A stretch of 64,000 bases of DNA from Thozetella sp. PMI_491 (lineage: Eukaryota; Ascomycota; Sordariomycetes; Chaetosphaeriales; Chaetosphaeriaceae): assembly GCA_021432635.1 (NCBI GenBank), contig MU270037.1:826047-890046 (forward strand), read 5' to 3'. A program made the translations under genes and the position numbers. The notes under the pieces were generated by a model. That model was not told the DNA's origin, searched no databases, and saw only the letters and a program-made list of their open reading frames with translations. Shown here in pieces: positions 7,755-48,200 of this stretch; the stretch's first letter is position 1; each line of letters begins with the position of its first letter.

Positions 7755-10348
7755 TTACCAATCCCCCGCCAACGACGGCCTCCATCCCGGAGGGGGCGGC
7801 GTCTTAAAGTACTGTTCCATGACCGCCCAGTCGACGACGCCAGGCTGGCGAGTCTCTACCTGGGGTTCGGCGAATTCTACGTCGTATCGTACTTCCATGC
7901 CGCTCCTACTAATCATGACCTGATCATACCACCGTTCTTCGTCCGGAGCCCCGACCACTCGCAGAGTAGGGTCCAAGGTCTCGACCGTTACCTCCTCTTC
8001 GGACTCCCACTGCACCCAGATCCTAGTGGCGCTCCCATCATCTTGTTGCACAACGTACTCGTCGACCGGTTCCCCAGTACCGAATCGGAAGCTCCCCTTT
8101 GTTCCAGTCGGGGCGGTGACCTCGGCGGCGACTCCCTTTCTTCTCTTATTGCCGGCCTGGTCGACTTCGATGGTCCGCCAGAGCTTCACCTCAAAACGAC
8201 CCAGAACTGTAGCAAATCCGCCTCTGGCCCACCCGAGCCACTTGGTCAGCTGTGAATGGACTACCCACTCCTCACCAGCTGGCTTCACTAGTTCTATCCC
8301 TAGCACTTCGCCGACCATCACGCCCGTGGGGCCGCTCGCCCACCCGTGGGCATGGCTATTGCGGGCGGTGCTCCAGTACGCCGGGTACTGCACGTGTCCA
8401 TCAACGCGGAATCCTTCGGCCAGCGTGCTGTTGGTGAAGCCGTCGCCGTCAAGAAGATACCCCCACTCGAGTAGCGCCAACTCAACGGCGGCGTCAGTAT
8501 TGCCCGCGGCACAGTGGGCCAACAGCTCAAAGCTGCTGGCGAACGGGGAGATGACGTTGGGGAACTCGGTAGCTGGGGCACCAAATTTGATCCAACGTGA
8601 GCGCAGGTTGCTACTGATGTTGAGAGCCGTGGGAGGACCGCCTGGAAGAGGGGTGGCAGCCCGCTGGTCGCTCTTGGGGTGCTCCCAAGGGAGACCAGAA
8701 CGATTGAGACCGGCGCTGCTGATGAGAGTCCAAGAGTTCCCATCTTGAGGCTCGGTGCGCTCATCACCTATGCAATTGCGCCGGCCGACATTGTCCGAGA
8801 AGAGGCCGCTATCTGGGCAGTATAGCCTAGCAAGGCCCTCTTCTATGATCAGCTGGAGGGTGGTCCAGTCCTCTAGTAAGGCAGTGTCATTTCGCCTGAT
8901 ATCCTCCTTGCTGTCTTTGGGGAGCCACGAGAGCAAGAGCTTGCTCTTACTCAAAGCGGCGTGCAGCATGGCAGTAGCTTCGAGATTGTGTCCTGTCATA
9001 CCAGGCCGAAGCCAGTCGGCCGTGGATGCGACGTGGACCAGACCCAGCTCGTCGACCCTTGATATGCTGACCTGGAGCGCTTTCAGGTAGGCGGGCCAGC
9101 GTTGCTCCAACCAGGCAATGTCTCCAGAGTAGAGAACGTAGTTATATGTCCCCAGGAGGGTATGGATATGGTAGGTGTCGCTGAATTCGCCGCGGAAACC
9201 CATGGGTGGGCCGGCGTAGGGCAATGATCCGTCGCTGAACTGATGCGTGTACAGCACGTCCAGCGCATTGCGGACAGCAACCATGTCATAGGTCGACACC
9301 GCTATGCCGGGCACCGCGATGTACATGTCCCCAGGCCACACGACCCTGTCCCTCTTGGCGCCATCTGTTGTCACAGCTTTACCCTCCGCGATGGTAAAGT
9401 TGTTATACCAAGAGCCGGTTGGAGACTCGTTGTGATCGAGGAAGCGGTTGTAGTCAATCAGGGCCGAGCCCTCCTTCGGATCGATAGTCGACAGCTGCAG
9501 CGTCCATGCACCAGCGTACCAAATTCGGTTGAGGAGGCGACTGGAGCTGTAGAAGTATCCCGAGTACGCACGGCCATTCGACTGTGAGGGAAATGCTGTG
9601 CAGTTGACCCAGACGTTGGACAGTGATACATAGGCTCGGCTGTACTTCATAGTGCCGATGTACGTCGAGAGCGGCCTGGAGTCGTGGCCCAGGACCTTCT
9701 GGCCCAACGTGTCCACCATGTTCCATATCCTGTCCCCGGCACTAACGGCATCGTCGGACGACTTTTTGTACGGGAGGTTGATGGTTAAGTACTTGAATGC
9801 GCCACGGTTAAACTCGGGGTCGACGCACACCGTACCGGTCCGATCTCCGATCTCGAGCGCAAGGGGCAGGTCTCGCTCTTGCCGGTCGGTCGTCGCGTCT
9901 GGGATGGGGCCGGCAAACCACGGCGATTCCGAGTATGCGAGGTTGACGACCGGGTCTTCCCCGACGGAGCTGACTTCGAAGCAGACCCTACGGAAAACCA
10001 CCGTCAATACGAATGTCTCTGGCCATATCATAGGAGAAGCTTCACCAACCTCCCCGCGATGTTCTCGGCGAACTGCAAGCTTAGGGTGCCCCCAGCGCCA
10101 ATCAGTAGCCCCTTCCCCTCTTCGTTCTCGTCGCCGTCGACAGTAGATGTCGATACATTCCCGCGGACCTTGTAGATGCGCACCGGTGTAATGTAGCTCT
10201 TGTTCGCCGGGGCCCGGATGTACTCGTCCCAGGGGCCTGGAAATAGGGTCGCGTTGGGGAGGTTCTCGTAGTCGATGTAAGGAAGGCGGCTACCATTCGC
10301 GCAAGCTACCGACACAAAGGCAGCGGCAGCTAACTTGGCACGAAGCAT
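7755..10348 (-). CDS. Secreted GH78-type alpha-L-rhamnosidase (six-hairpin glycosidase)
   Basis: Exons 10348-10050 and 9987-7755 give about 843 residues. The 62-nt intron (GTTGGT donor, CGTAG acceptor) splits an Arg codon. The start at 10348 is the first ATG; it has A at -3 and opens a signal peptide (MLRAKLAAAAFVSVACANG), so the enzyme is probably secreted. It would release terminal L-rhamnose from pectic rhamnogalacturonan or plant glycosides. Diagnostic features are the (alpha/alpha)6-barrel motif KRDRVVWPGD (about 311-320), where GH78 enzymes place catalytic acids, and a downstream SHAHGWASGPTGV segment followed by a C-terminal beta-sandwich. The exact substrate cannot be read. The gene converges on the helicase with a gap of 163 nt. 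No neighbouring pectinase or sugar transporter suggests a cluster. Confidence 0.88.
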
Positions 10349-14546: not shown

Positions 14547-16724
14547 ATGTCGTTCAGTTCATCGGCCTCTAACAGGAGGCGCCCCGCGAAGAAACCCGAC
14601 CTACCGCCCGGCTTCTACTGCATTCGAGACATCCTGGAGGAAGCCGGGCCCGGAGAGGGGCAGATGACCAATCTGGTCGGCATGGTCAAAGATGTCCGGC
14701 TTCCAGCGCCGACAAATGGCACAGGCAAGCACCCCATCCACCACCGTCTACACCCTCGCTAACGGCCTCCCGATGCGCTTGCAGACTTCAAGTGCACCAT
14801 AACACTCTTCGATCTGTCTACAGAAGAAAGCGGAGATGCAATTATCTTCAATCTCTTCCGCTCGGAGAAGGAGATGCCCGAAGTCACAAACAGGGACATC
14901 ATCTTGCTCTTCATGGTCAAGGTACGCAGCAGCCCTCGGCTCCGCTTCCCACACATAGACGCACGCTACCTCGCCCTCCTGCTGCTCCACCGATCGCCTT
15001 ATTTCTCTATATGTTCGTATACCTGACTGAAAACCCAGATCCAAAGATTTCGAGGAGGCTCGCTATCTCTCATTGCCAATTTCAGCACCTCTATATGTGT
15101 CTACACCGCCTCCAAGATCCCACCTGCCCCTAAGTCCGCCACGGTGGCACTGCAGCCTTCCGCGAGGCCGCGCAAACGGGAGCCTACCCAAAGGGAGGTT
15201 GACTATGTGTCATATCTGTACCACCAAATCGACAAGGACTATACGGTCGACGATGAAGAGTTCCAGGCCCGCGCCCAGGCCTCCCTAAATGTCAAGAACA
15301 AATTCAGTCTCCTCCAGGATGTTCGAGACGAAACATTCTACGACATTATTGCCCAGGTGGCTCGGGATCCCTACGACGCGGGCGACAAAGTGACCCTTTA
15401 CGTCTCAGACTACACGGAGAACAAGCTGTTCTTCCACTATACGTATGACGGACTCCGTGAACTAGCAGGCGGAGAGGCACCCGGCCATAGCCAGTCTGGC
15501 CTCACTCAATGGAGTGGCCCGTACGGCAAACGGGTCATGCAGATCACTGTCTACGAACCGCATGCAAGCTTCGTCCGGTCCACCGTCAGGGCGACGCAAT
15601 GGCTTCTGCTTAACAATCTACAAGTAAAATTCGGGCACAACGCTGTGAATTTAGAGGGCTTCCTGCGCGAGGACCGCGACTCCATGGGCGGCAAGCTAAA
15701 CGTATCCATTCTTGAAACTCAAGGAGATCCCGACCAAATCGACCCGCGGCTCAAGGAGGCTGTCCGCAGGCTTCGCGAATACAAGAGAAGGTACAAAGAC
15801 GAGCTCATGAAGCTCGAACAACTAACCAGCGCGAAACGTAAGGGAGACGAAGGACTAGACTCGGATGACACCGACAAGCGCAAGAAGTCAAATTCGAAAG
15901 CAAAACGCGCGCGCCGGCGCCAGGAAATTCAGAAACGGATCGAGGAAGAGCAGTCCAAGAATGCGGTCGACCTGAACAGGCAAGTAACCTGCGAAAGCCA
16001 GGACAATGACGTCTCATCCATCTCCCAGATTCTGGAGCCCAGTTACTACGACACCACGATCAATGGTCAGTGTGTCAAGCTGCCACTTCCTTTCACATGC
16101 GGTAAATACCTCGCCCACGTGCGAGTGATCGATTTTCTGCCCCACGCGCTCGAAGACTTCACAGCGAGCCGCAAGGCCAGTCAGTTCGACATGCTCTCTG
16201 ACACGGGTGACGACTTCTCGGACGACGAGGAAGACGACGGTGTGGGTGGCAGCAGTCAGCATATCTGGGAGTGGCGCTTCTCCGTCCAGCTCGAGGATGC
16301 CCGCCCTCAGAAGGAGGCCGGCATGACGCATCCGAGGCGCTTCTGGGTGGTGGTGGATAACGCCGAGGGACAGTGCCTAACGGGCCTCGATGCCGTCGAC
16401 CTCAGGGCCGATCAGCACGCACTTGAACGACTCCGGGAGAAGATGTTCACACTCTGGGGGGACCTCGAAGAGCACAAGGCAAGGGACGTTGCGCGGCAGG
16501 AAAGGGAGAGGAGCCGACGCCCGGGCGAGCGGCCCGCGCTGGACTCGGACGGGGAGGAAGAAGTGTCAGAAGAGGGCAGGAGGGCGGTATCGAATACGCC
16601 CTTTGCGTGCTGTATCAGAGAGTTTGGCGTCCGGGTGCCGGAGGAAGACCCTGGAAAGGCGGACGCCGGTGAGGGCATGCGTTGGCAAAGGGTCTTTGGA
16701 CTATTTGGGACCAAGATCAGCTGA
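14547..16724 (+). CDS. POT1: Protection of telomeres protein 1 (POT1), telomeric single-strand binding
   Basis: Exons 14547-14724, 14785-14921 and 15039-16724 encode about 666 residues. The first intron is a GC-AG intron (AG|GCAAGC donor, GCTTGCAG acceptor) and the second (117 nt) is GT-AG. The protein binds the G-rich telomeric overhang and controls end protection and telomerase access as part of shelterin. The N-terminal OB fold (Telo_bind, about 20-145) begins LPPGFYCIRDI and includes FKCTITLFDLSTEESG and FMVKIQRFRGGSLSL. A second OB-like region follows (about 195-370, with KVTLYVSDYTENKLF). After it come a basic coiled linker (about 380-450) and a C-terminal domain with FACCIREFGVRV. The start is the first ATG of the frame, with A at -3. 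The gene is divergent from importin alpha. Confidence 0.9.
14725..14784 (+). other. GC-AG intron in POT1
   Basis: The 60-nt intron has donor CAG|GCAAGC and acceptor GCAG with a CTAAC branch motif near 14758. No GT donor nearby restores the frame, whereas this junction gives NGTDFKCTITLFD, which reads smoothly into the OB fold. GC-AG introns are a small minority in fungi. Confidence 0.85.
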
Positions 16725-17264
16725 TGACAACAACAGGCCACGTCTTGACGACCATTAGATCACCTAGTATAGTGCGGCCCCATCCCACCCAATGAGTGCA
16801 TACTGTTCATCCAAGATGATGGGGATGAGGACTGCACGAGGCAGAGGGGGTAGTGGTGGCCGATATTCCAGCTACATCATAATGAATTGCCAATTAAACA
16901 GGATGTCCGAGAGCAACGATATATAAGATGGTAAAGAAGAGTATTGTCACAGACAATGGCATCGCTTCCCTTCCTTGGCAATCTTAGTATTTGCTTTTAC
17001 ACTCTGGGACCGTCTGTTCTCGTATAAAGGGAAGACACATCTCTTATCTAGCACCAGGAGATATCATGGCTTCAAATCTTGATGCGATCAAACAAGTCAA
17101 ACCTGCACGCCTCGACTTCACAATGACGTTCAAGGGATACGAAGAGCTAGCACACAACCAGAATCAATAGAGCGTAGCCTTGGGCGATCCAACCTCCAGC
17201 CAATAAAGCTAATCGCAGGAAGCTTGTCGTTGGCCCTATTTCTACCTGCCAGGGACTCTGTTCT
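16725..17264. other. POT1 3' flank and unassigned sequence
   Basis: This holds the POT1 3' untranslated region, then AT-richer sequence leading into the glucan-synthase fossil. A short open frame starting at an ATG at 17066 (about 34 codons) is not recognisable. Upstream parts of the fossil may extend into 17215-17264 but are too degraded to call. Confidence 0.4.
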
Positions 17265-18615
17265 AACCAATCAAGGGTGGAAATAATCAGCAAGAGCCTG
17301 TGCGAAATGGACGACACTGGATGGGATCCGTGGTTCGAAAAGGTTTCCCCGATCGACAAGTTGCTCTGCCAGTATACCGACACTGGGGCTCTAGACTCAA
17401 GCTCATGCAATCCTTATCGCCATCCTATCGAGAGGCTCGCTCAGAATTCCCACTGCAGCGAGGCGGAAGTTGTCAAGGCAGTAGCCTAGCTGGCGGAGAA
17501 AGCCGCAGTTGAGAATTCTGGCATATGGGAGACAAATGTAGGCGCCTTTATCGTGGGCCGACGCCAGCAAGAGCCAGAAGCAGCCGTGGGCTACGAACCA
17601 CCATTTATTCGGCCGATGCTTCGTATGGTGCGGTCTCTTGGTTTTGCTGCAGTCGTATCCCCTATTTCCTTCATCACTCTGCTAGCAACTGCGGGTGCTA
17701 GCTTCTTCCTAATCCAATCTGGCCTTCCTCTACTCGCCGTCTTCCTCCTTGCTATTTACTTTCTCCCTACCCGCAGCAGAGTGCGCGATCTATCTTTTAA
17801 ATCCCATCATCACCTATGCAGTCACTCAAACTCCACTTATCGGCTACGAATTCAAGGGTGGGGTCCCAGAAGAGGCCAGGACTCTCGTCGTTGTGCCGTG
17901 TCTGCTTGTCGACCGCAGCACAGTAGATCGACTGATTGGTACACTAGAGGAACATTCTCGCGCCGGTATGGTGGGTGAGATCTACTTTGCCCTGCTTACC
18001 GACGGGTGCGACAGTATCTTCGAGATAAACGAAGCAGACACCGAGATTCTTGAGTATGCCAAGCAACGGATTGCCTCGTTAGGCCCAGGCCGTTCTCGTT
18101 TTTTCTTGCTCCTACACTGCTGCCGCCTTTTCAATACAAGCGAAGGCGTATGGACGGGCTGGGAGCGTAAACGCGGCAAACTTCACGAGCTGAACTTGCT
18201 GCTCCGTGGCTCTCGCGACACGAGCTATCTCTCAGGCTATGACTCGGTACCTGAAGGAATACAGTACGTTATGACGCTGGATGAAGAAACGTGACTGCGT
18301 TACGGGGCTGTTACGAAACTGGTCGGAAAGATGCACCATCCAGTCAGCCGGCCGGTTCTTGATCCTAAAACTAATCGCGTTGTCCATGGGTATGGGATCA
18401 TGCAGCCATGGATTATGCCCCCGTCCAACAGCTTGAGGGAGGGTTCCATCTTGCGCCTAACCGAATCAAGCCTCCAACTCCTCTATGGCTACCGCTCTTT
18501 GCTTTTTAACGTCTATCAGATCCTCATAGGAGAAGGCCTCTTCAACGGTAAGAGCCTCTACCATGTTGATGCCTTCAAACCCTCCTTAGATGGCCGCTTT
18601 AGAGAAAGCACTAAA
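17265..18615 (+). pseudogene. Decayed fragment of an NdvB-type cyclic beta-1,2-glucan synthase (GT84)
   Basis: About 450 codons' worth of similarity to bacterial ChvB/NdvB-type synthases can be read in order. It starts with a helical segment (RHPIERLAQNSHCSEAEVVK), then VGYEPPFIRPMLR and membrane segments. Next comes GVPEEARTLVVVPCLL at the start of the glycosyltransferase part, then FALLTDGCDS, the signature SEGVWTGWERKRGKLHELN with LLRG, a variant of the DADT motif (TLDEET), VVHGYGIMQP and LYHVDAFKPSLDGRF. It is broken by a TAG at 17487 (CAG to TAG would explain it), a frame change near 17765-17780 and a TGA at 18292 (CGA to TGA). A segment is scrambled near 18460. The intact family is around 2,800 residues, so most of the protein, including the GH94-like phosphorylase region, is missing. 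Bacterial families of this kind reached fungi by transfer. Confidence 0.88.
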
Positions 18616-19321
18616 AGTTGAAGTAAGAAAAGTGCCAGAGTTGGAGAAGTATAGCAGTCATTTATAGAAGTACTGAAGTTGGAGAAGCATTAGAGGTAGA
18701 GAAATTGAAACTTCACTTCTTCTAAGGGTCAAGCAAGTTAGTTCTATGCCAGGGCAATTTATCTTCATCAGGCCTCATTATTGGACTGCACACTGTACAC
18801 TGCACACTTCTCAATACCCACACATCTCTAGGCACAGTGACAATCTATGAATAGCCCGAAGCTATAACAGATCGATGTTGACAGTCGTCGCCTCTTAGGG
18901 TTCGTAGAGACTCGTCCCGGAGTGGTAGTGCTAGCAAAGGCCACGAGCAACCAGCTCTGGAGAGCGGAACAAGGGCATTTTACTGCCAAATCGAGAGGTA
19001 CCAAGTTGGAAACACGACAGTCTAAACGAGAGGAAGCACTGAGGCACCGCGTAATGAACAAGTTTCGTCAACAGATTATGCATGGTATTGATACATGAAC
19101 CATGTGCATAGGATACCTATTTCCAGGTGCCATGGCCGAACGTGAACCCGAAGAACGAGAATCCATCCGTCACAGGTGTACCGCCACCCCGGGTAAAATC
19201 CGCACTTAAATTTCGCTCCAGAGTCGCAAGATCCTGTGCCTGCGGCGGCTTCCCGTCCCTTAGTCCGCCAAACGCCGGCCGAGCACACATATCAAGAGAA
19301 GAGCACGACACTCCTCCTTCC
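18616..19321. other. Fossil 3' flank and STAG-gene 3' side, with a degenerate repeat
   Basis: Similarity to the glucan synthase stops at about 18612. Immediately after it the sequence becomes repetitive (AGTTGGAGAAG at 18640 and 18673) and carries a segment at about 18654-18675 similar to repeats at 25347 and 27441. The rest to 19321 should contain the 3' untranslated region of the cohesin gene. Confidence 0.4.
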
Positions 19322-22300
19322 TCAATCCCCAAGAATAGACTCATCATCCAGGTGTTCATTACCGGCACCGTCGCCGTCGCCGTCGCCGATCGGGTCATCA
19401 TCGATTATCTCCTCGTCCAACAAACCTCGCCGGCGGAGATCTTCCCGGCTGCCCTCCTCCGGCTCGTCTGCGAACGGGTTCTGCATGTCCTCATCCGAGT
19501 CGCCATCTTCAACCGTTTCTGCGCTGACCGGCTTCTTGGACCCCGGCGCAGCCGACGTCTTCCCCTTCGTCTTCTGCACCTTCTTCTTGGGAGCGCCGGA
19601 CCGCTTGGCCCTGGCCTCGTCCAGCCGCTGGTGAATCTTGTCCTCGTCCAGGTAACCGAGTATCTCCTTGGGGTTGTTGCCCAGCTTGTTGCGATTGCGG
19701 AGCATCCTCTTCCTCAACTTGCCAGCGGTGGGTCCTTCGCAGTCGACCATCTTGGCCAAGATGGTCATGACCAAACGGCCAGCCAGTTCACATAGGGCCT
19801 TCTCCGCCTTGAGCTCTCTACCTTTACGCTCATCGATGGTCAGGTCCGCGTCATCTTCATCGTCAGACAAAGCATCGTCATCGAGGGGGTCTTCGTCCTC
19901 AGCGGGCTCGTTGAGTGTCTTCTTGGCCTTTTTGGCATAAGCCCGCTCCACCGAATCGTACATTTCAAGGAGTTCGCTGTCGACCAGGCCCGGGGCGATC
20001 GGTTGGAGGAGCGGCATCAGTGCTGCGTACTTCTGCGCGGCTCCAGGCTTCTGCTTGATGGTCTCGCGAACGGACGCAAACAAGTAGTGCACATCGCAGA
20101 GACCGCCCGTGGCAAACAGGCGGAGCTCGTCGTTTGTGCCTCGAGAAGACAGAGTGTTGATGAGGTTGTGCTGGTAGGTCTGCAGCAGGGTCTTCAGGTG
20201 CTCGATCGCAACACCAGGAATGTCGGTGTCCGCGCGGATAAGCCCATTGATGGCCCGAACCTTCCACATGAAATAGAAGTGACATGTCCTCACGGCAAAA
20301 GAGATGGCCTCATCCTCGACGTCGTCCAACTCGACGTCCTCCACGTCCAATTGGCCGCGGTGGACGATCCTGACCAAGATCTCGATTGCTGGTGCATCCG
20401 ACTCTTGGGACTGGCCCCTGGCCTCAAGCATGTCTACACAATCGGCAATGCTTGCGAGCTTGCTCATCTTGACTAGGACGTTGCCGAGCTCCGACACAGA
20501 GGGCGCATCAATGTTGAGCCGCTGGCCGAGCTCACAGGTTTTGTCGAAGTGCCTCAGCTTGTTGATGATGTCCTCCCAGAGGACGGAGATCTTGCTATCC
20601 GTGGTCTCCTCCAGTTCGTCATACTTGCGGGCGTGCAGCAGGGCCGCGGTTGCTTCCGAAAGAACCCCCCTGTCGACATGTCTGTTAAACTGCATGCAAA
20701 TCTCGTCTAGCAACCGGGTGTAGGTCGAGGAGTCCTGGCGGAGCTGCTGGAACACGTCGACGTCGAGGGCGCGGACGAGCTGCAGTACCGTCACGGCAGT
20801 GCTGGGGTCGCCGCCGAACTTCCTCAGAAGCGGGGGAATGGCGGCAGCCAGGTGGATCGCGGTGTCCTCAGGGTTGTCTCCGCCGTCAGGCCGGGGTTTC
20901 CGCCTAAACCTGTCGCCATCGGTCGTGCGCACCAGGCTCAGTTTAACAGCAGAGGCGAGCACCTCGAGCAGGATAGTCTCTTCCTGGCCCTCGGGCGCCA
21001 CCGCATTCCTGATTGCGACTTCGTTCGAGGCTTTCTTAGACCTCGACTTCGTCTTTGCGCTTGCCGTATGGTCGTAGAGGAGATAGCCGGCAAGCATCTC
21101 CCAGTTGCGAACCTGTTCGACTTTTTCGTACAAGACTTGTGATGCCAGGGAGATTCGGCTCTCGGGCGCGACAGGCTGCACCATCTCCACGGCGATGTCT
21201 AGCCCACGAGGTGGCTCCGTCTGCTGCTCCGCTGCCAGATCCGCATCGTATGCCGCGAGATTCTCGGCGAGACACTTGATGTTTAGCCAGGCCTGGCGGG
21301 GCGAGAAGTAGTCGTCTGGGTCGTCCTCTCCGAAGAGCTCTTCGACTACCTCGCTACCGCCGATGTCTTCCGTCTTGCCCTCGATCGAGTCTCGGACGCA
21401 GTCGACAAAGAAGTCAATAACAGCCTTTCGGACCCTCAGGTCCGAGTCGAAGATGAGCTTCCCGATCGAGTCGATCTCGTCAGGCTCCAGCATTCCCGTC
21501 GACTTGAGCGTGCCCATGACGTTGATGGCGGCGACGCGGACGGCAACGTCGATATCCATGGTCGCCATCTCGACGAGGCGCGGTCTGAAGCGGTCGATGA
21601 AGTGGCCTAGCTTCTCGGCGTCCCGCTTGAATATCCTCGAAAGCTGCTTAAGGATTTCCTGTCGAGTCTGCGGTGTGATGTCGGAGAGCTGCCAGCCGAG
21701 ATAACGCAAATACTCGGGTTCCATGAACACGGTGGGCAGTTGCCAGACCCACGTCCCGAGCGCCTCGGCAGCCTCGGTGCGAATCATCGCGTCGGTATCG
21801 CGGTAGCGGTGGACAAAGACGGTCTCGAAGAAGTCTTTCAAATGGGTTCCGCATATGCTCCGGCTGTTGTTGGCGTCGTTCAGGCTGCGCTGGAACGAGG
21901 CAAGCCTCTCCTTGTTTTTCCCTTTGCGTTTCTGCTCCGCTTCGACTTGCTGCGTGAGCTTGGTGATACGGTCGTCTAGCTTCTTCGCGACCTCGGTCAA
22001 GGCAGTCTCCATGGCGAGGGCGACGGTCGTCGCTGTGTGGCGGAAGGGGCGGAGGGTCGAGGAAGACATGGAGACGACCCATCGGGCGATATTCTCCATC
22101 AGAGTGTCATCCTTGTAGAGGACATCGGTCTCGTGGATGACGTTGACCAGGGTCTTGAAGAAGCCAACGAGCAGATCGCGGAAGGGCCTGGTAGACTTTG
22201 CTCTCGACATCAGGGGATAGTCGGTGATGCCCTCCTACAGCACTGGTTAGCAGAGATCTTCGCGACTGTGGATGCGAGGAAGGAGCTTACCTCTGTGTAT

Positions 22301-40347: not shown

Positions 40348-43244
40348 GGCGAGAGGCTCTCCCGGTCGGGGCGCGGAAGGAGACGCGGGGGGTGCTGAGA
40401 TCTGGAGAAAGAGACCAAACAGTAGCGAGGCCGGAAACAACGCCACAAAAACATATCCGGTTGTGGTCGGCACTGTCGGAGGGGATCTCCACTCTTGGGC
40501 CGACGGGTTGCCAGAGCGCTCCGACTTCGCGCCCTAGAGGTCGCCAGCGCCTTCATATGCGAATTGTGACCCTCTGGTAGACGGCCGAGGAGTTGTGACG
40601 GTTCGCTTCTGCTCGAAGGTTCAGCACCGAAATCTTAGCTATGTATAACACAACAGGCTCCTCGCATCCTTGGTCACTTGAAAGCCTCTTTCACGTTCCC
40701 CACGAGAGGATTTGGAAAGACGAAACGCGGCTAACGTCTTTTGCGCGCCCAGGATTGAATGTAACTCCTTAGGGGGCGCATCGTAAAAAAACATAGGCGG
40801 ATCCTGCCTGCCGAGAACCGTGGGCTTTACAAGCGTGGTGCTAGGAAAGGGGCCAGGCGCCCAGGCGCAACGGATCCAGGCGAACCCTCCATCATATTTG
40901 ATGGTTATCTGCGCTGCAGGCGGAGAGAGCAACGCAAGGGAATAGGAAAGAGGGGAGGGCACATGAAGGCTGCCAAGCGCATAACCGCCCAATACCTGCT
41001 CTCTGATTAGATAACTGCACGCTGGCGGGACTAGCAGCCGTCGAGGTTGGGGTGACATAGAAAAGAGAGATGGCCCGGAGGCAAATCGGGAAGACCCACA
41101 GAAAAGCTACGGGGCCTGTTGGGCTCTAATATGGGTGAAACCCGGCGCCGGGCGGCATTTGGGCCCCACTCTGCGATCTCCCGCGGGGGTCGGGTCCGGG
41201 ACCGGCGAGATCGATTTCAGGTACCGAGGTACTTAACTCAGCAAGCGCAGGCAGGGATTGCGTATCCGGCCTTGGGCACACGAGCAGGACCTCACCGACT
41301 CGACTCGGAGCGTTGCATCGAGCTCCAAAAAAAAAAAAAAAAAAGAGCTTGTTGGCATTGCAGGGGCATCGTGGCCCATGTAGCCAGGCCAGAAATAGGA
41401 AAGGCCCTTCTTTGTTCCCACTGCACCCGTGTGGGATGGCAAAGGGCGGTAAAGAAAGGGCAGATTTTATTAGGGCGTGGAGGAAGGCAGCAAAAATGAG
41501 AACCCACCTCCAGGGTCACACCGGCCAGACCTTCCCACGCTGGGGTGCCTGGCTGCCACGGTCTACACCGTTTTTGACAGACCGTGAGCACCGCCAGCTG
41601 GCGATCCGTGCATAGCAGAGCCCCGCCATGTACCAATAGTTCGCGACCCATCTGGCCAATGACGTGGCCGATGTCGAGGCATGTTGGTCGCAAAAGGAAG
41701 GCTGGCATTAGACCCCGCACCCCGCTAGTATCAGATGAGGACTAGCGTACTTACTCAACCTCATCTCTCCGCTCACCGTTGTGTCACGATCGCAGCCTTT
41801 GCGACACCATCGGTTCGCCGTTCAAACTGGTCGCAAAAACGCTGGGCACCCGGCGCGCTCGTTGTTTCAGGCGCATCGCGAAGAGATTGCCTTGGAGGGT
41901 TGTTACAAACCTTCTTGCATCTTTGCAGCATTCTGTGACTTCGCGCGCTTATGTGATAGTGTACGGCCGAGTGCCGGGCGTCTCCGTGACCGCGGCTGGT
42001 GCGAACTGACGCGATGCGTAGAAAGGGGGATCGGGCAGGTGCTTGAGAATCGGAGCGGCCATCACCATGTCTCGGTAGCCTGTGTGAGACAACAGAAACA
42101 GCGCAGACAGGAGCTGAGACCACGGGGCACCGCAATCTTGTTCAAAGAAGTCGTCGTATTTGCTACAGAATCGAGAATACAATCCGATCTGCTTGGGTTC
42201 ATATCATTTCTCGCGCCAGGGCAAAACGAAGAAAAGCATAAGCGATGAGACGACTGCAAGGACAAACCAGGCACAGACTAGGAAAATAGTAACAAAGAAT
42301 AACAGCAATAACAGCTGAGGAAAGCAGCTGAGGAAACCCCCACACACAGTATTCCGCCGAGCATAGGCAAAAGGAAATTGTCCCCTGGTGCCAAATCTCC
42401 TTCGTCTGGAGACAGCCGCCTCATCCATCCCGGTAACCCGGAGAAGCACCCTCGTTGTTTCCATGGTGCTCCCATCCATCTCAAGTGAAACAATATTTGT
42501 TTTGTTCGGGGCGGTATTTCCGCCACAAGCTTCTCCATCCCAGTTCTCTCTTGCTCTGTCTCCCGATCCCCCGTGAGCAACTGGGCGACTGCGCAATAGG
42601 GCATGTAGTCGCATTCGGTGCCATCGAATATTTTTATGTTGATAAGTCGGAGAAAACGGGGTGGCTGAAGAACCAAGTTCATGCTGAGCCATTGTGGATG
42701 CGAATTCCTCATCTGGCTCATCGATAAAACTGATGGAAGCCACGGTGACGAGGGGAAAAAAAGATAGTGACCATCCTTCATAACGCCTGACCTTCTCATC
42801 CTTTCCCCGTGGTATATCTTTAAGGAGCGGAAGCCTAGCCCGTGGCGGCTGGTCGTCATTACGGTCCCTCCCAAACAAAGACGGCCGGATCGGCCCTTGA
42901 GCCGGAAAGGAAATAAAAACAATCGCATCGTAAGCGAGCCGGATGGCGAAAGCACTTTTGCCGTACCCATTTATCAACAACAAGGGAGACAGCCCGGCGA
43001 GTTCCATCTCTCTTCGCGCTCCTGTTCAAACTGAGACGTATCGCAAGAGAGGAACCCGCAATGATGGAGAACCAATCTTTCCAATACAGGGAGTAGGGGC
43101 TGCTTGCCAGCTGAGACTGTCGCAAAAGGAGCCCGCCTATCCCCACATGATCATATGTCAATGCTGCGGCTGGCGACCCCGTCGTTCGCATGCTCGTAAG
43201 GGTCATGCATCTTGGGGTGGACCAGGAGGCGCCGGGTAGGCGCT
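40348..43244. other. Gene-poor region with one unexplained reading frame
   Basis: About 2.9 kb. The left end should hold the transporter promoter. A tract of 18 A lies at 41327-41344. Nothing else is recognised except overlapping open frames on the minus strand at 42204-43007, listed separately. Confidence 0.4.
42204..42692 (-). CDS. Doubtful small protein with a C-terminal membrane helix
   Basis: A frame from an ATG at 42692 would give about 162 residues ending in a strongly hydrophobic stretch (LLLLLFFVTIFLVCAWFVL, then VVSSLMLFFVL), as in tail-anchored proteins. The frame remains open upstream to 43007. A second frame on the same strand is also open from 42970 to 42278, so low stop density rather than coding may explain both. 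I know no family for it and see no splice pattern. A decayed gene is another possibility. Confidence 0.15.
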   Translation of the reverse strand: MAQHELGSSATPFSPTYQHKNIRWHRMRLHALLRSRPVAHGGSGDRARENWDGEACGGNTAPNKTNIVSLEMDGSTMETTRVLLRVTGMDEAAVSRRRRFGTRGQFPFAYARRNTVCGGFLSCFPQLLLLLFFVTIFLVCAWFVLAVVSSLMLFFVLPWREK

Positions 43245-45270
43245 CTACCGCTTTCGCTTCTTGTTCTTGTCGAGAACGGCTTGAGCAGACATGATTGGGG
43301 GGGCAGGCATCGCAGCCGCAATGGGGGCAGGAGGGAGGAGAGTTGGAGGAGGTATGGGCAGCACAGCGTCCTTGGAGATGGGAACACCCATATGGCGGCC
43401 GTAACGACCCTTGCGCCCGTTCCCTTCGTCCTCGCTGATGCAAAGCTCGGCGGGGAGGCCCGCATCGCGGCACCGGCCGCAAGGCCGCTGTCGGTCACAG
43501 CCCTTCTTGCTCTTTCGGCAGCGCTGGCACCGAGGCTTGCTGGACAGGTCTGGCTGCTCTTCCTCGCCGGGCGCCAATGGCAGGGCGGGGTTGGAGGCAA
43601 TGGAAGGCTTGCGAGAAGGGGGAACGGAGGTAGGCGACATAGGAACCGACATCGAGGCCGGCTTCTTGACCTTCGGCTTGTTCGGCTTAGGAGTCTTGAT
43701 CTTGTTCAACCCCTGTGGGCGGGGCTTGGCACCGTTCAAGGTGTTGGCCTTGGGCTTGGGCATCTTCAGCTTCGGGGCTGCCATGGAGCCTATGGGGGCC
43801 TCGGCGTCCGAGTAGTCGCTATCCTCAACGCTCGGCTGAAGGTGGTTCTCGACAGTTGGGTAGATGTTCCTGTGGTTGCCCGCGCTGTCAAGCTTTTGCT
43901 TCCGCGCAGGCGGCATCTCCTCCTCGCTATCACTGTCGGCGTCGCTGGTGGCGCCGGTGGAAGAGGCAGCATCTGCCCGTCCGCTGAAGGTATCGTCTAA
44001 TGTCGAAGCTGAAGTTCTTCCGTGGGAGATGTTTGACATTTCTCCAAGGCGCATGAGCTGGATTGCGACGTCCTTGTCCTCTTCCGACATGCAGCTTCCA
44101 ACTGTTGGGTCTGGTGTAGGCATCATTCCCATGCCGGGGGCAATGCCAGCGCTCGGCAGGTAGCCGATGCTACCACGACCACGACGGTGGTCAGCGCTAG
44201 GGGTGGTATAGAGGCTCGCCTGGGACGGCCCGTGGGTATAGCTCTGGGGGGACTGCAGAGGACGGGGGTTCGTGAAAGGGTTTTGGCTGGGGTGGACGTA
44301 AGGGAGGGAGTGTCGGTAGTGCTCAATACGGCGAGCAGGAGAGACAGAAGGATTCGAAGTAGCAGCGGGCATCTGAGGAGGAGCGAAGAGGGGAAGTTCC
44401 TAGTCAAACCAAGTCAGTCAAGCAAGCGAACGCCAATGACGCTGTGTCGGAGGCGGCGACTCTTACAGAGCTCTCGAACTTGGCTCGCTTCCGCCGGCCC
44501 CCCTCGACAATGTTGTCGACGCTGATCTCTGTCGTGCCGATCTGCTCTTTGCTCTTACCCGAGACAGAGCCTGGGGCACCATCGCCGCTGCTGTAGCCGT
44601 TCATATCGCTATGCGCATCGCCATTGGCGGACCCGCGGTTCTTAGAGGAGCGTGAGCGGCCTTTCTTGCTAGTAGGGGGGTTTGTGCCCACCGAAGTGCT
44701 TCGGCGGCCACGGCCGCTGTTAGGGGAGGGGCTGCGCCTTCGCGAAGTCCGCGAGGTGGGCCTAGAGATGTGCTGCGCGATCTGGTGCGGCGGCTGCAGG
44801 GCATAAGCGTCGCCGCTGAAAACAGCGGGTGCAGCGACCGGCGCGCTGTAGGGATGCGTGCTGTAGGCCCCCGGGGGGGGCGGAGTCTCGTCAATTACAC
44901 GCACGTAGACGACCATGTTGTTTTGGAAGTTCTCGTAGCGCGCGATGAGGGTGTTTCCTTGTTCGTCCTCAAAGCTGACGCCTTTGGAGACGCTCGGCCC
45001 CGAGTACAAGCCGTAAAAGTTCTTGACAGTCGTGACAATGGACTCGGTGGTATCATGGGGGAAGATGGAGACACGCAATGGCAAGCGCGCACGATATTGG
45101 GGAGATTCCCGGAACAGCAGCTCAAAAGCGACGTTCTTGGGCGCGGCAGCAGTCCGAGGCGACACGCTGCCGCTGCCGGGGCTGGCTTGTATGGGAGCCG
45201 CACCATATAGAGGAGAAGCGGCGGAAATTGTGTAGCCCATATGGGTTGCCATGTTGCCACCAGTGGTCAT
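43245..45270 (-). CDS. Zn2Cys6 transcription factor with C-terminal zinc cluster
   Basis: Exons 45270-44467 and 44399-43245 encode about 652 residues; the 67-nt intron has a GTAAGA donor and a GACTAG acceptor. Residues about 35-130 form a compact conserved-looking domain (NVAFELLFRESPQYRARLPL, IVTTVKNFYGLYSG, RYENFQNNMVVYVRVID) that could have a ubiquitin/PB1-like fold. Long S/P/R-rich linkers follow, with basic clusters (RRRSPSPNSGRGRRS). The zinc cluster CQRCRKSKKGCDRQRPCGRC plus a sixth Cys sits at about 559-588, close to the C-terminus, where most fungal members have it at the N-terminus. The end is basic (KNKKRKR). The start is the first ATG of the frame. A nuclear regulator is likely; its targets are unknown. 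Confidence 0.87.
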
Positions 45271-48200
45271 GATTGGTGAGGTTGTGTTGGTTCGCGGGAA
45301 ATGGGATTGTGTGGTGGTGATCGGGGGCGGAGTCGTCGGCCCCAAATGCGGATGGGCTGTGACGACTGAGGTTTGTGGGCGGTTTCTTTCGAAACCAGAA
45401 TGGCAAAATCGAGACGCAGCGGAGCACCACGGTCGATTTCTACGATCTAGGATGGAATAACGGTCGGCCAGAGTGATTGACACCTTGCCACCGTACACCG
45501 TCCCTGATCGGGGAGGGAGAAGGGTCACCGCCTGGGCGCCACAGGGGATCGACTGGCCAGTGTCGGGGAGGTGGAGGGCGGGTTTGTCGGCGGCTCGATT
45601 CGGATCTGGAGGCGCTCCTGGAGAGTCAGCGGGGTGATGCTAGCGAAATGGAGCGAAGATGGAAGGAAAGGAAGATAGATGGTGGTTGTCGGCCTGGATT
45701 GGGAGGGGGGTGTTCCAGAGCGGAGGCGCATTCAGCCATGCTCCCCGTGGGAGAGAGGGCGAGCGTCGGCGCGCGTGGAAAAGACGGGGAGCAAATATTG
45801 GGCCAAGATGTCGATCGCGTGAGCGAAAGGCACCGAAAACACTTACCAGAATGACTTGGGAGCGGTGGTGCTGGGCTGGGGATGGCTTCGATCTCCGACT
45901 CTATCGCACCAAGAACCTGCCGACCTGGGAGGCCCAGACGGAACGGTCAGTCTCGACGTCCCCGATGCAAAGAAGCAGTGCAGGGCAGTGGGAGGAGGGT
46001 GCGACGCAGATGCGATGCGAGGGCGATGCCGGATGGCAATGACATACCAGAATCACCGAGCACGAGTTTGATGACGAGGTCTGGTCGAGGAGGTCGGGTG
46101 GTGGTGTGAAGAGCAGAAGAGAATCGCAACGAAAAAGTACGTTAACGTATCGGCCTGCGCACAATGTCTGGTAGCGTAGTGCTCGCCCGCCCACCCAAAA
46201 CCCGCCTCGACCGGCTCGTCCACGTTTTTGCACTGTGCTAGCACAGATGGCCCAGTTGCCCAATTCTGGCCCCAAAGATGAGAATTCTGATTTCCAGACG
46301 GCTCTATCGACTCGAGAAGCCTTCGTTTGGTACCCATCATGCTATATACTTTTTTTGCGCCTGCGCACCGCAGCATCTGCCGTCGCCTGCCTCGATCTCG
46401 AGGCCGGCTTTTCGCACACAGTCCACCTCACCAGTGGCCCAGTTGCAGGAGCGGCACCGCGCTGCACTGACTGGCGGCTGCCCTGCTTGGTCAGTTGGCC
46501 CCAGAACCCACCCCTCCTCTTCAAACGGCCGCTGCTCCTCACACCTACACTATACGACACCACGCTCCCGCCCAGTAGACAAGCCCGTTCCTTATCTCAG
46601 AGATGCGGGTGCGGGTGTGTTTGTGTGTGTGGATGTCACGAGACACACTATGTTTACTTGCTCGACAGTGCCGGCTTCTGCCCATGGGGGGAAGGGCTTG
46701 TGGCATTGTTGGGATGGACGCTGGGACTTACCCGATCCTCACTCGCTGCAGTACCCCGAACGGGGGCGATAGCAAACCAGAGACATGAGGAAGGGGCGTT
46801 GTAATGTTACCATGCTTCTCAATCGTCCATTTGCTATCTGTCTATTACTTGTCCGATGCAGCAAACCATGCTGCAAGGGCAACATCAGAAGAATTTTAAA
46901 AAAATCTAACTTGCGAGGGAAATCGTGTGGAAGGTGTGACCGCCTTCCCCTATCAATGGTCCGGGTCTGTGGTCTGCGACCCGGACAGGGCTCTTCTTGT
47001 AAGTCTGCGCCGGCGGTGAGTATATTCGCCTGGGGCGGCATGTCGAGGCACACGCTACGCAGGCGCTATTCCCTGCTGGCGCCCGGGCTTGATGAAGGGG
47101 GTGGGATTCCGAGGTGAGCGGCTAAGCAGGATCTGCTCTCTTAGACAATCCAAGCCAGACGCTGACTTGTGGACGAGATCACCTGCCGCAAATCCCCCTC
47201 TCTCTTCGCCCCCTCCCCAAAAATGGCCCGGCGAGCGAGCAGCGCTTTCCAGATGGCTTGCTCCTGGTGTCGTCAGAAGGATGCGCCCCTTTCCTGCCAA
47301 TACATCCCGATAGGCCCGCCGTCAGCTGCCAACATGCGACGGGGCCCATGGGCCGCCCTCGGCGATCGGGCTGGCCGCTCCGGGGCCACAATCTCCTCTC
47401 ATGGAGACCCTACTGCGACTTTGGCGTAGCTATCTATACCCATTCGCGTCGGTCGCTAGCGAAGCCAGAGGCCAGTAGCCAGTGGTCAAGAGCGCGCGAG
47501 ACAATGAGCGACCGTCAGGTGTCAATGGGCGGCGACCCGCGAGGGGAGGGTCCAGCCGGCCAATGGCGCAGGCGCCGTCCAGCGTGAGACAGGGATCTCG
47601 CCCTCGAGGTGCCTGGAATTGGTAGCGGGCCACAGCCGGTATTGGGGCCAGTCCAACACGGAGCACCTTGAGGACCCGGCCTGCCGGCGGGCGGCCAGGC
47701 CCCAGACTTGTCCTACTGTGTCTACTGTGCGCCAATGAGCCATAGCATGAAAGTCCATCAAGTTGCTCGTCTAACAAAAACCGGCGCCGCCAGGGTTGAC
47801 AGACTGGAAACGGAGTGGAGGCGGAGCGCGAGGGTTGTGTTTCCCTGATCCCCGTCTTTGATCCCATCGATGCGATGCGCCGAGGCGAGGGGAGGGGCCA
47901 AGTTTGCGTGTGCCAGCCGGCACAGCCATGCAAAGAAAAAAAAGGCGCCTATCACTTGAGGGATGTGCCCCCCCTCCCTCCCCCATGGACAGAGTGTGTA
48001 GAAGAGCCTAGTCAAATCCCTCTTCGCCAGGTCATGCTAGGTCATGTTTCATTGCTCAATCAGGTACCCGTGGGTTTAGACCGCCTTGTAAAACGACCTC
48101 CCGCAACCCCATCATTACTCCAGGGGTTCTGCGTGTGAGCGAGGACGAATAGGAGCGATGCGAACAGAGCGAGGCGGGAGGCTCGGGCTCCAGAGGGCCA

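Follow-up and report, generated by a model that had tools for sequence, protein, structure and literature searches.

Between two host genes of a fungal contig there lies, very probably, a pseudogene fragment of a cyclic beta-1,2-glucan synthase (GT84/GH94; ndvB/chvB/cgs), acquired horizontally from a donor among the Rhizobiaceae or a close sister line. This judgement is drawn from sequence comparison, and the confidence attached to it covers the core of the reading, that is, the colinear homology, the one copy found, the stops and the frame change, the lack of both ends, of the catalytic base and of the parts for CY and GH94, as well as the grouping with the Rhizobiaceae; the past of the gene is graded separately below. 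The window, by which we mean the whole stretch of 64,000 nucleotides analysed here, belongs to a contig of 941,190 bases in a genome of 72,315,471 bases and 157 contigs, and the features of the locus are the following:

15027..16724, + strand: upstream flanking host gene with a POT1PC telomere-protection domain, long open frame including the stop (Pfam PF16686, E 8.5e-45)
17262..17486, + strand: piece A, remnant of the N-terminal domain (Cgs chain about 261-334; phmmer)
17487..17489, + strand: in-frame stop TAG in a column that varies among bacteria (translation and alignment column)
17490..17792, + strand: piece B, VGYEP motif and hydrophobic stretch (Cgs chain about 351-432; phmmer, and tblastn in frame 3 up to 17792)
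17752..17792, + strand: stretch of the frame change, where the frame-3 and frame-1 tblastn stretches overlap
17749..18291, + strand: piece C, GT84 core (phmmer)
18292..18294, + strand: in-frame stop TGA where 59 of the 63 bacterial rows have Arg (alignment column)
18295..18612, + strand: piece D, continuation of GT84 and the most decayed part (phmmer)
19322..22234, - strand: downstream flanking host gene, cohesin subunit SCC3/STAG, long open frame (Pfam STAG, E 4.8e-42; also SCD and HEAT_SCC3-SA)

Searched alone against the PDB sequences with phmmer, each of the four pieces matched the Agrobacterium Cgs, on the same strand and in colinear order: in 8rf9_A numbering, chain residues 261-334 were matched by 17178-17486 (E 3e-12), 351-432 by 17490-17975 (E 4.5e-8), 423-608 by 17713-18291 (E 3.8e-55), and 613-714 by 18295-18618 (E 5e-23). 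The last two values, obtained against the solved Cgs/NdvB, place the stretch in GT84 by homology. When the window was searched by tblastn with two full bacterial proteins, the NdvB of Sinorhizobium meliloti (2870 residues) and that of Neorhizobium (2861 from the first Met), the matches covered 17256-18609 and 17286-18612, with main stretches of 294 and 324 bits; the fossil corresponds to residues 315-761 of the Neorhizobium protein and spans about 450 of some 2860 synthase residues, approximately 16% of the gene. As a control, 200 dinucleotide shuffles were searched, of which 189 gave any match at all, the highest reaching 30.4 bits as against 324 for the real sequence. The remaining matches of the two NdvB queries in the window had E values of at least 1.5, and a more sensitive run over 16501-19400 added a single match below 1 (E 0.35, 17 residues, 16966-16916 on the opposite strand), which is taken as chance, the others being at 1.1 or above. 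None of the four pieces matched a Pfam or NCBIfam model significantly, and for this reason the family assignment is based on the PDB and bacterial NdvB matches. An earlier note on this DNA had proposed the fossil of a bacterial-type cyclic beta-1,2-glucan synthase at 17265-18615, with two stops and a frame change, and the results above bear it out: the interval is right within about 10 bases, its five NdvB/ChvB motifs (VGYEP, VVHGYGI and LYHVDAF among them) are found in the order it gave, the lesions lie where the list places them, and the translated search against bacterial GT84 proteins that it suggested as a check produced the significant tblastn matches just described.

No single intact reading frame runs through the fossil, which is interrupted by the TAG, the frame change and the TGA, and whose last frame ends at another stop, 18619-18621, shortly after the homology does. 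Each inner stop corresponds to exactly one bacterial column absent from the fossil pieces: among the 63 bacterial rows, the column of the TGA holds Arg in 59, K in 2, Q in 1 and I in 1, and that of the TAG holds A in 22, D in 14, E in 10, R in 9, S, G and Q in 2 each, and T in 1. Both ends of the gene are absent. With regard to catalysis, in the Agrobacterium Cgs D527 and D624 coordinate UDP, with D739 acting as the catalytic base and R773 as part of the RW motif; an inactive GT variant was made by changing D624, D626 and D739, and CY occupies 979-1535 with the GH94 part starting at 1536 (PMC10901819, available text). The chain numbering is equated with that of the paper from the DAD at 624-626 in the alignment. 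Piece C retains the residues aligned to D527, R586 and D624, and at D626, the second Asp of DxD, the fossil has Glu against D in 63 of 63 bacterial rows; the alignment of piece D stops at residue 733 of 8rf0, before D739 and R773, so that neither the catalytic base nor any part of CY or GH94 is present, no significant match to the CY (GH144-like) domain or to the C-terminal GH94 phosphorylase being found past 18612.

The same picture emerges from the columns that are invariant in the 63 bacterial rows, since the fossil breaks 11 of 46 and keeps 35 (4 of 5 in piece A, 19 of 22 in C and 12 of 19 in D, with none in B), as against 0 to 5 broken when each bacterial row is held out in turn, the maximum being row L030, with 46 of 51 kept. 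Given these 11 breaks, one Asp of the DxD among them, and an end that falls before the catalytic base, the stretch therefore cannot be a working synthase; as read from its sequence, it has no enzymatic function now. Within piece D, the part at about 18405-18530, which surrounds the Cgs IF1h loop, stays in frame while having changed much more than the rest, and it may have lost constraint earlier than other parts.

A different explanation of these lesions is that the gene works and that splicing removes them. All the GT..AG spans of 40-200 bases across the lesions were enumerated (66 over the TAG, 39 over the TGA and 21 over the frame change), and the eight best for each were examined; spans thus exist over every lesion, and five of the eight best over the TGA have a branch-point match. 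However, three of those five shift the frame, all eight would remove alignable GT84 residues at or directly after the DxD, and the eight best over the TAG, like the eight best over the frame change, have no branch-point match; furthermore, neither the locus nor the best-scored candidates elsewhere in the genome yielded the parts of NdvB that hold the catalytic base, CY and GH94. On the loss of GT84 residues, the frame shifts and the scarcity of branch points among these best spans, splicing rescue was judged unlikely, and we would give it almost no credence.

The bacterial descent of the fossil can be specified further. Among plasmid records, 125 were matched by tblastn, all with less than 60% identity, the top one being the ndvB of Sinorhizobium meliloti (59.1%); in a bacterial genome collection, 37 pattern matches yielded 7 loci (three uncultured Rhizobium, Rhizobium sp. 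BK376, Gellertiella, Neorhizobium and one Limimaricola), with that of Neorhizobium at the top (60%). Searches by order matched 20 of 150 genomes at E 1e-20, and by family 153 of 247 at E 1e-30, where the 30 best loci were 57-63% identical; since the loci taken were the best-scoring ones (20 at the level of order and 30 at that of family), the sample leans to close relatives. The 62- and 61-row trees, fossil included, derive from 65 reading frames, from which identical rows were taken out together with L012 and L070, both copies of the Neorhizobium locus; a 26-row tree is a subset of the 62 chosen by us, and rows are called Rhizobiaceae-type when they came from the family search or were so placed by us on the tree, the Sinorhizobium plasmid copy L035, which groups elsewhere, being counted outside. 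In the 62-row tree of piece C, the fossil and 39 Rhizobiaceae-type rows group at 97/99, and in the 26-row tree the fossil and 16 such rows do so at 97/98, while a topology in which these 16 form a clade without the fossil is not rejected (AU test, p-AU 0.372). From the two groupings and this test it follows that the source was Rhizobiaceae or a close sister line, a position inside rather than beside the family not being forced by the data (AU p 0.372). The nearest row to the fossil in the 62-row tree is a single one with support 83/66, and the fossil branch measures 1.49 against a median of 0.094. The tree of piece D, in which columns are few, the fossil branch measures 3.9 and the letter make-up of the fossil is odd, gives its position no support. 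The proposal of the earlier note that a GT84 (NdvB/ChvB) gene of bacterial descent was acquired horizontally and is now dead is thus upheld, with the source narrowed to a Rhizobiaceae-like one by the piece C trees, in which it groups with the donor family.

A sequence so clearly of bacterial descent could also have entered as bacterial contamination or as a chimera of the assembly. However, the fossil is broken, its identity to the bacterial loci found does not exceed 63%, its GC3 of 0.57 lies below that of three Rhizobiaceae rows (0.72-0.86; the host frames on either side have 0.69-0.77), and it is flanked by two host genes, of POT1 type and SCC3, in such a way that an origin of this kind is barely conceivable. 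The window contains 22 long open frames, of which 20 were scanned with Pfam, 9 without a match at 1e-5, and the other Pfam-matched frames include a DHX29-type helicase, an Arm-repeat protein, UreD, RPC4 and mitochondrial carriers. Elsewhere in it, an open frame of 844 residues at 7758-10289 (- strand) matches the six-hairpin domain of alpha-L-rhamnosidase at E 1.6e-9, and three adjacent long open frames of 273, 384 and 411 residues at 42207-45639 (- strand) have no Pfam match at 1e-5.

As to copy number, the genome searched with the GT84-core protein and with the DNA of 17100-18700 gave self-matches alone, and searched with the first 1938 residues of the S. meliloti NdvB gave just two stretches of the fossil, with one stop inside each. 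PF10091, which we take to be the Pfam model for the CY/GH94 part of NdvB, found nothing in the genome at E 0.001, and PF17167 (GH94) found one intact frame of 810 residues over the cut-off, on contig C10, and a weak second one below it, on C7. The genome search scores the best candidates only, and because of this the negatives fall short of proving absence; among those best-scored candidates there is no intact paralogue of the kind that the earlier note proposed to look for, and its suggestion of a partial duplication finds no support, a single copy having been found in the 72.3 Mb genome by the protein, DNA and NdvB queries alike. The flanks of the fossil match only themselves in the genome at E 0.001, and the intergenic region has no inverted repeats and, as direct repeats, two short two-copy ones; a spread carried by repeats was rejected on the self-only flank matches and the absence of inverted repeats. 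Just 3' of the fossil, at 18630-18690, there are two direct repeats of 23 bases, 78% alike and with starts 38 bases apart, possibly due to chance. Among viral contigs, 14 stretches fitted a pattern and none was a relative.

The earlier note had also attributed the decay to RIP or to methylcytosine deamination, and a silencing of this type following duplication would have in its favor that a single C-to-T change in CGA gives the TGA, whose column is Arg, that R-to-C and R-to-W are among the 11 broken universal columns, and that C>T has the highest single rate. A set of 41 Rhizobiaceae-type rows agree unanimously at 385 first and second codon positions, and the fossil differs at 71 of these, with C>T at 9/70, A>G at 11/92, G>A at 9/110, G>T at 9/110, T>C at 9/113 and the remainder fewer. 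However, when pooled, C>T and G>A (18/180) are about as frequent as the reverse A>G and T>C (20/205); by context, C>T amounts to 6/44 in CpA, 6/59 in CpG, 4/46 in CpC and 2/31 in CpT; the RIP composite index comes to -0.35, a value that 35 of the 140 window tiles reach or surpass; and no second copy was found in the genome. In other words, of the three signs of a RIP-inactivated gene (a second copy, an excess of C-to-T and a positive composite index) none was found, and on mutation spectrum, RIP index and copy number we reject this mode of decay, which appears highly improbable. With regard to the C-to-T origin claimed for both stops, that of the TGA from CGA stands as possible because its column is Arg in nearly all the bacterial rows, while that of the TAG from CAG is a guess because its column varies among bacteria, with Q in 2 of 63.

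How the gene evolved before its decay can be approached through the codon positions, for which separate HKY fits with fixed topology were made for pieces C, D and A, one piece each, with 13 bacterial rows chosen by us. The share of the fossil in the total tree length at positions 1, 2 and 3 was 0.178, 0.189 and 0.151 in piece C (180 codons), 0.149, 0.243 and 0.113 in piece A (75 codons), and 0.465, 0.635 and 0.182 in piece D (106 codons). These values suggest that piece C would have evolved mostly as a constrained protein, that piece A would be partly relaxed and piece D strongly so, a leaning rather than a measurement because the third position is saturated (the fossil branch reaches 6.4 in piece C). 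Part of the constrained branch, moreover, may belong to an unsampled bacterial donor, and an earlier working period in the fungus, for which the evidence is one sequence, is plausible but unproven.

The alternative here is that the gene was dead on arrival, a fragment of bacterial DNA having been inserted, for example during break repair, and having drifted neutrally ever since. Such an origin would account for a remnant limited to some 16% of the gene, the surroundings having given no significant match to the remainder, and would agree with the near-neutral piece D and the partly relaxed piece A; on the other hand, the codon-position pattern of piece C resembles that of bacterial genes along a long branch, and 35 of the 46 invariant residues have been kept in spite of third positions that differ from those of five Rhizobiaceae rows at 58-62% of sites. 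The same signs of constraint could come from a donor that sat on a long bacterial branch, and we regard the insertion of a dead fragment as rather unlikely, though worth keeping in mind.

The history proposed instead, to which we would assign roughly even chances, is that the gene would have arrived whole or nearly whole, would then have passed through a period of evolution under constraint at the protein level, and would finally have degenerated through deletion of its ends and through ordinary point mutations and indels. If we go a step further, a rhizobial cyclic beta-1,2-glucan synthase would have been at work in a fungal ancestor, with selection keeping its GT84 core; that ancestor may have made beta-1,2-glucan, and living relatives may keep the gene intact, a tentative proposal that we hold to be somewhat doubtful as a whole.

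With regard to known systems, the intact GH94 phosphorylase frame of 810 residues in the same genome (C10:1211425-1212618, L003) matches the GH94 half of Cgs at 172 bits, in contrast to 1234 bits for 4zle, named a putative b-glycan phosphorylase in the PDB. On this difference (1234 against 172 bits) it was rejected as the lost half of the fossil gene. We take 4zle to be a cellobionic acid phosphorylase. Fungal phosphorylases of the 4zle type may carry an NdvB label by similarity, and such labels could confuse searches for true GT84. Among the literature matches listed, with most subscription papers outside the scope, there is no description of a fungal GT84/NdvB: the ndvB of a paper that combines it with Ascomycota is, in its available text, a bacterial mutant (PMC7816849), and the words cyclic, glucan, ndvB and glycosyltransferase are absent from the main text of a paper on transfer in Colletotrichum (PMC4320630). 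In the available text of PMC12102758, the GT84 proteins are intact CGSs, GH162 is almost exclusively eukaryotic, and beta-1,2-glucan is described as a bacterial product.

If the loss were dated, at its fixed site with a conserved gene on either side, related species would allow a test of how fast fungi gain and lose bacterial genes, and the wider meaning of the fossil hinges on intact relatives. With the Cgs/ChvB/NdvB of the Rhizobiaceae (GT84, CY and GH94) it shares colinear homology across some 450 residues, N-terminal and GT84 parts taken together, and it differs from them in its two stops, its frame change, the Glu in place of D626, the lack of catalytic base, CY and GH94, and its location in a eukaryotic chromosome. 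OpgH, another glucan enzyme, presumably does not belong to GT84. The closest precedent is the transfer of an OpgH-like glucan glucosyltransferase, a different enzyme, present in Verticillium, Fusarium oxysporum and Metarhizium, and nearest to Rhizobiales with a bootstrap of 65%; that of V. dahliae is intact, expressed and needed for full virulence on Nicotiana benthamiana (PMC3145793, available text). As far as that text describes it, the two cases are alike in that a bacterial enzyme of osmoregulated periplasmic glucans, nearest to Rhizobiales, is found in fungi, and they differ in that the OpgH-like gene is intact and the fossil is a dead GT84, which would thus be the second type of osmoregulated-glucan synthase to have moved from Rhizobiales to fungi, after that of the wilt fungi (PMC3145793), and in this case encountered after its death.
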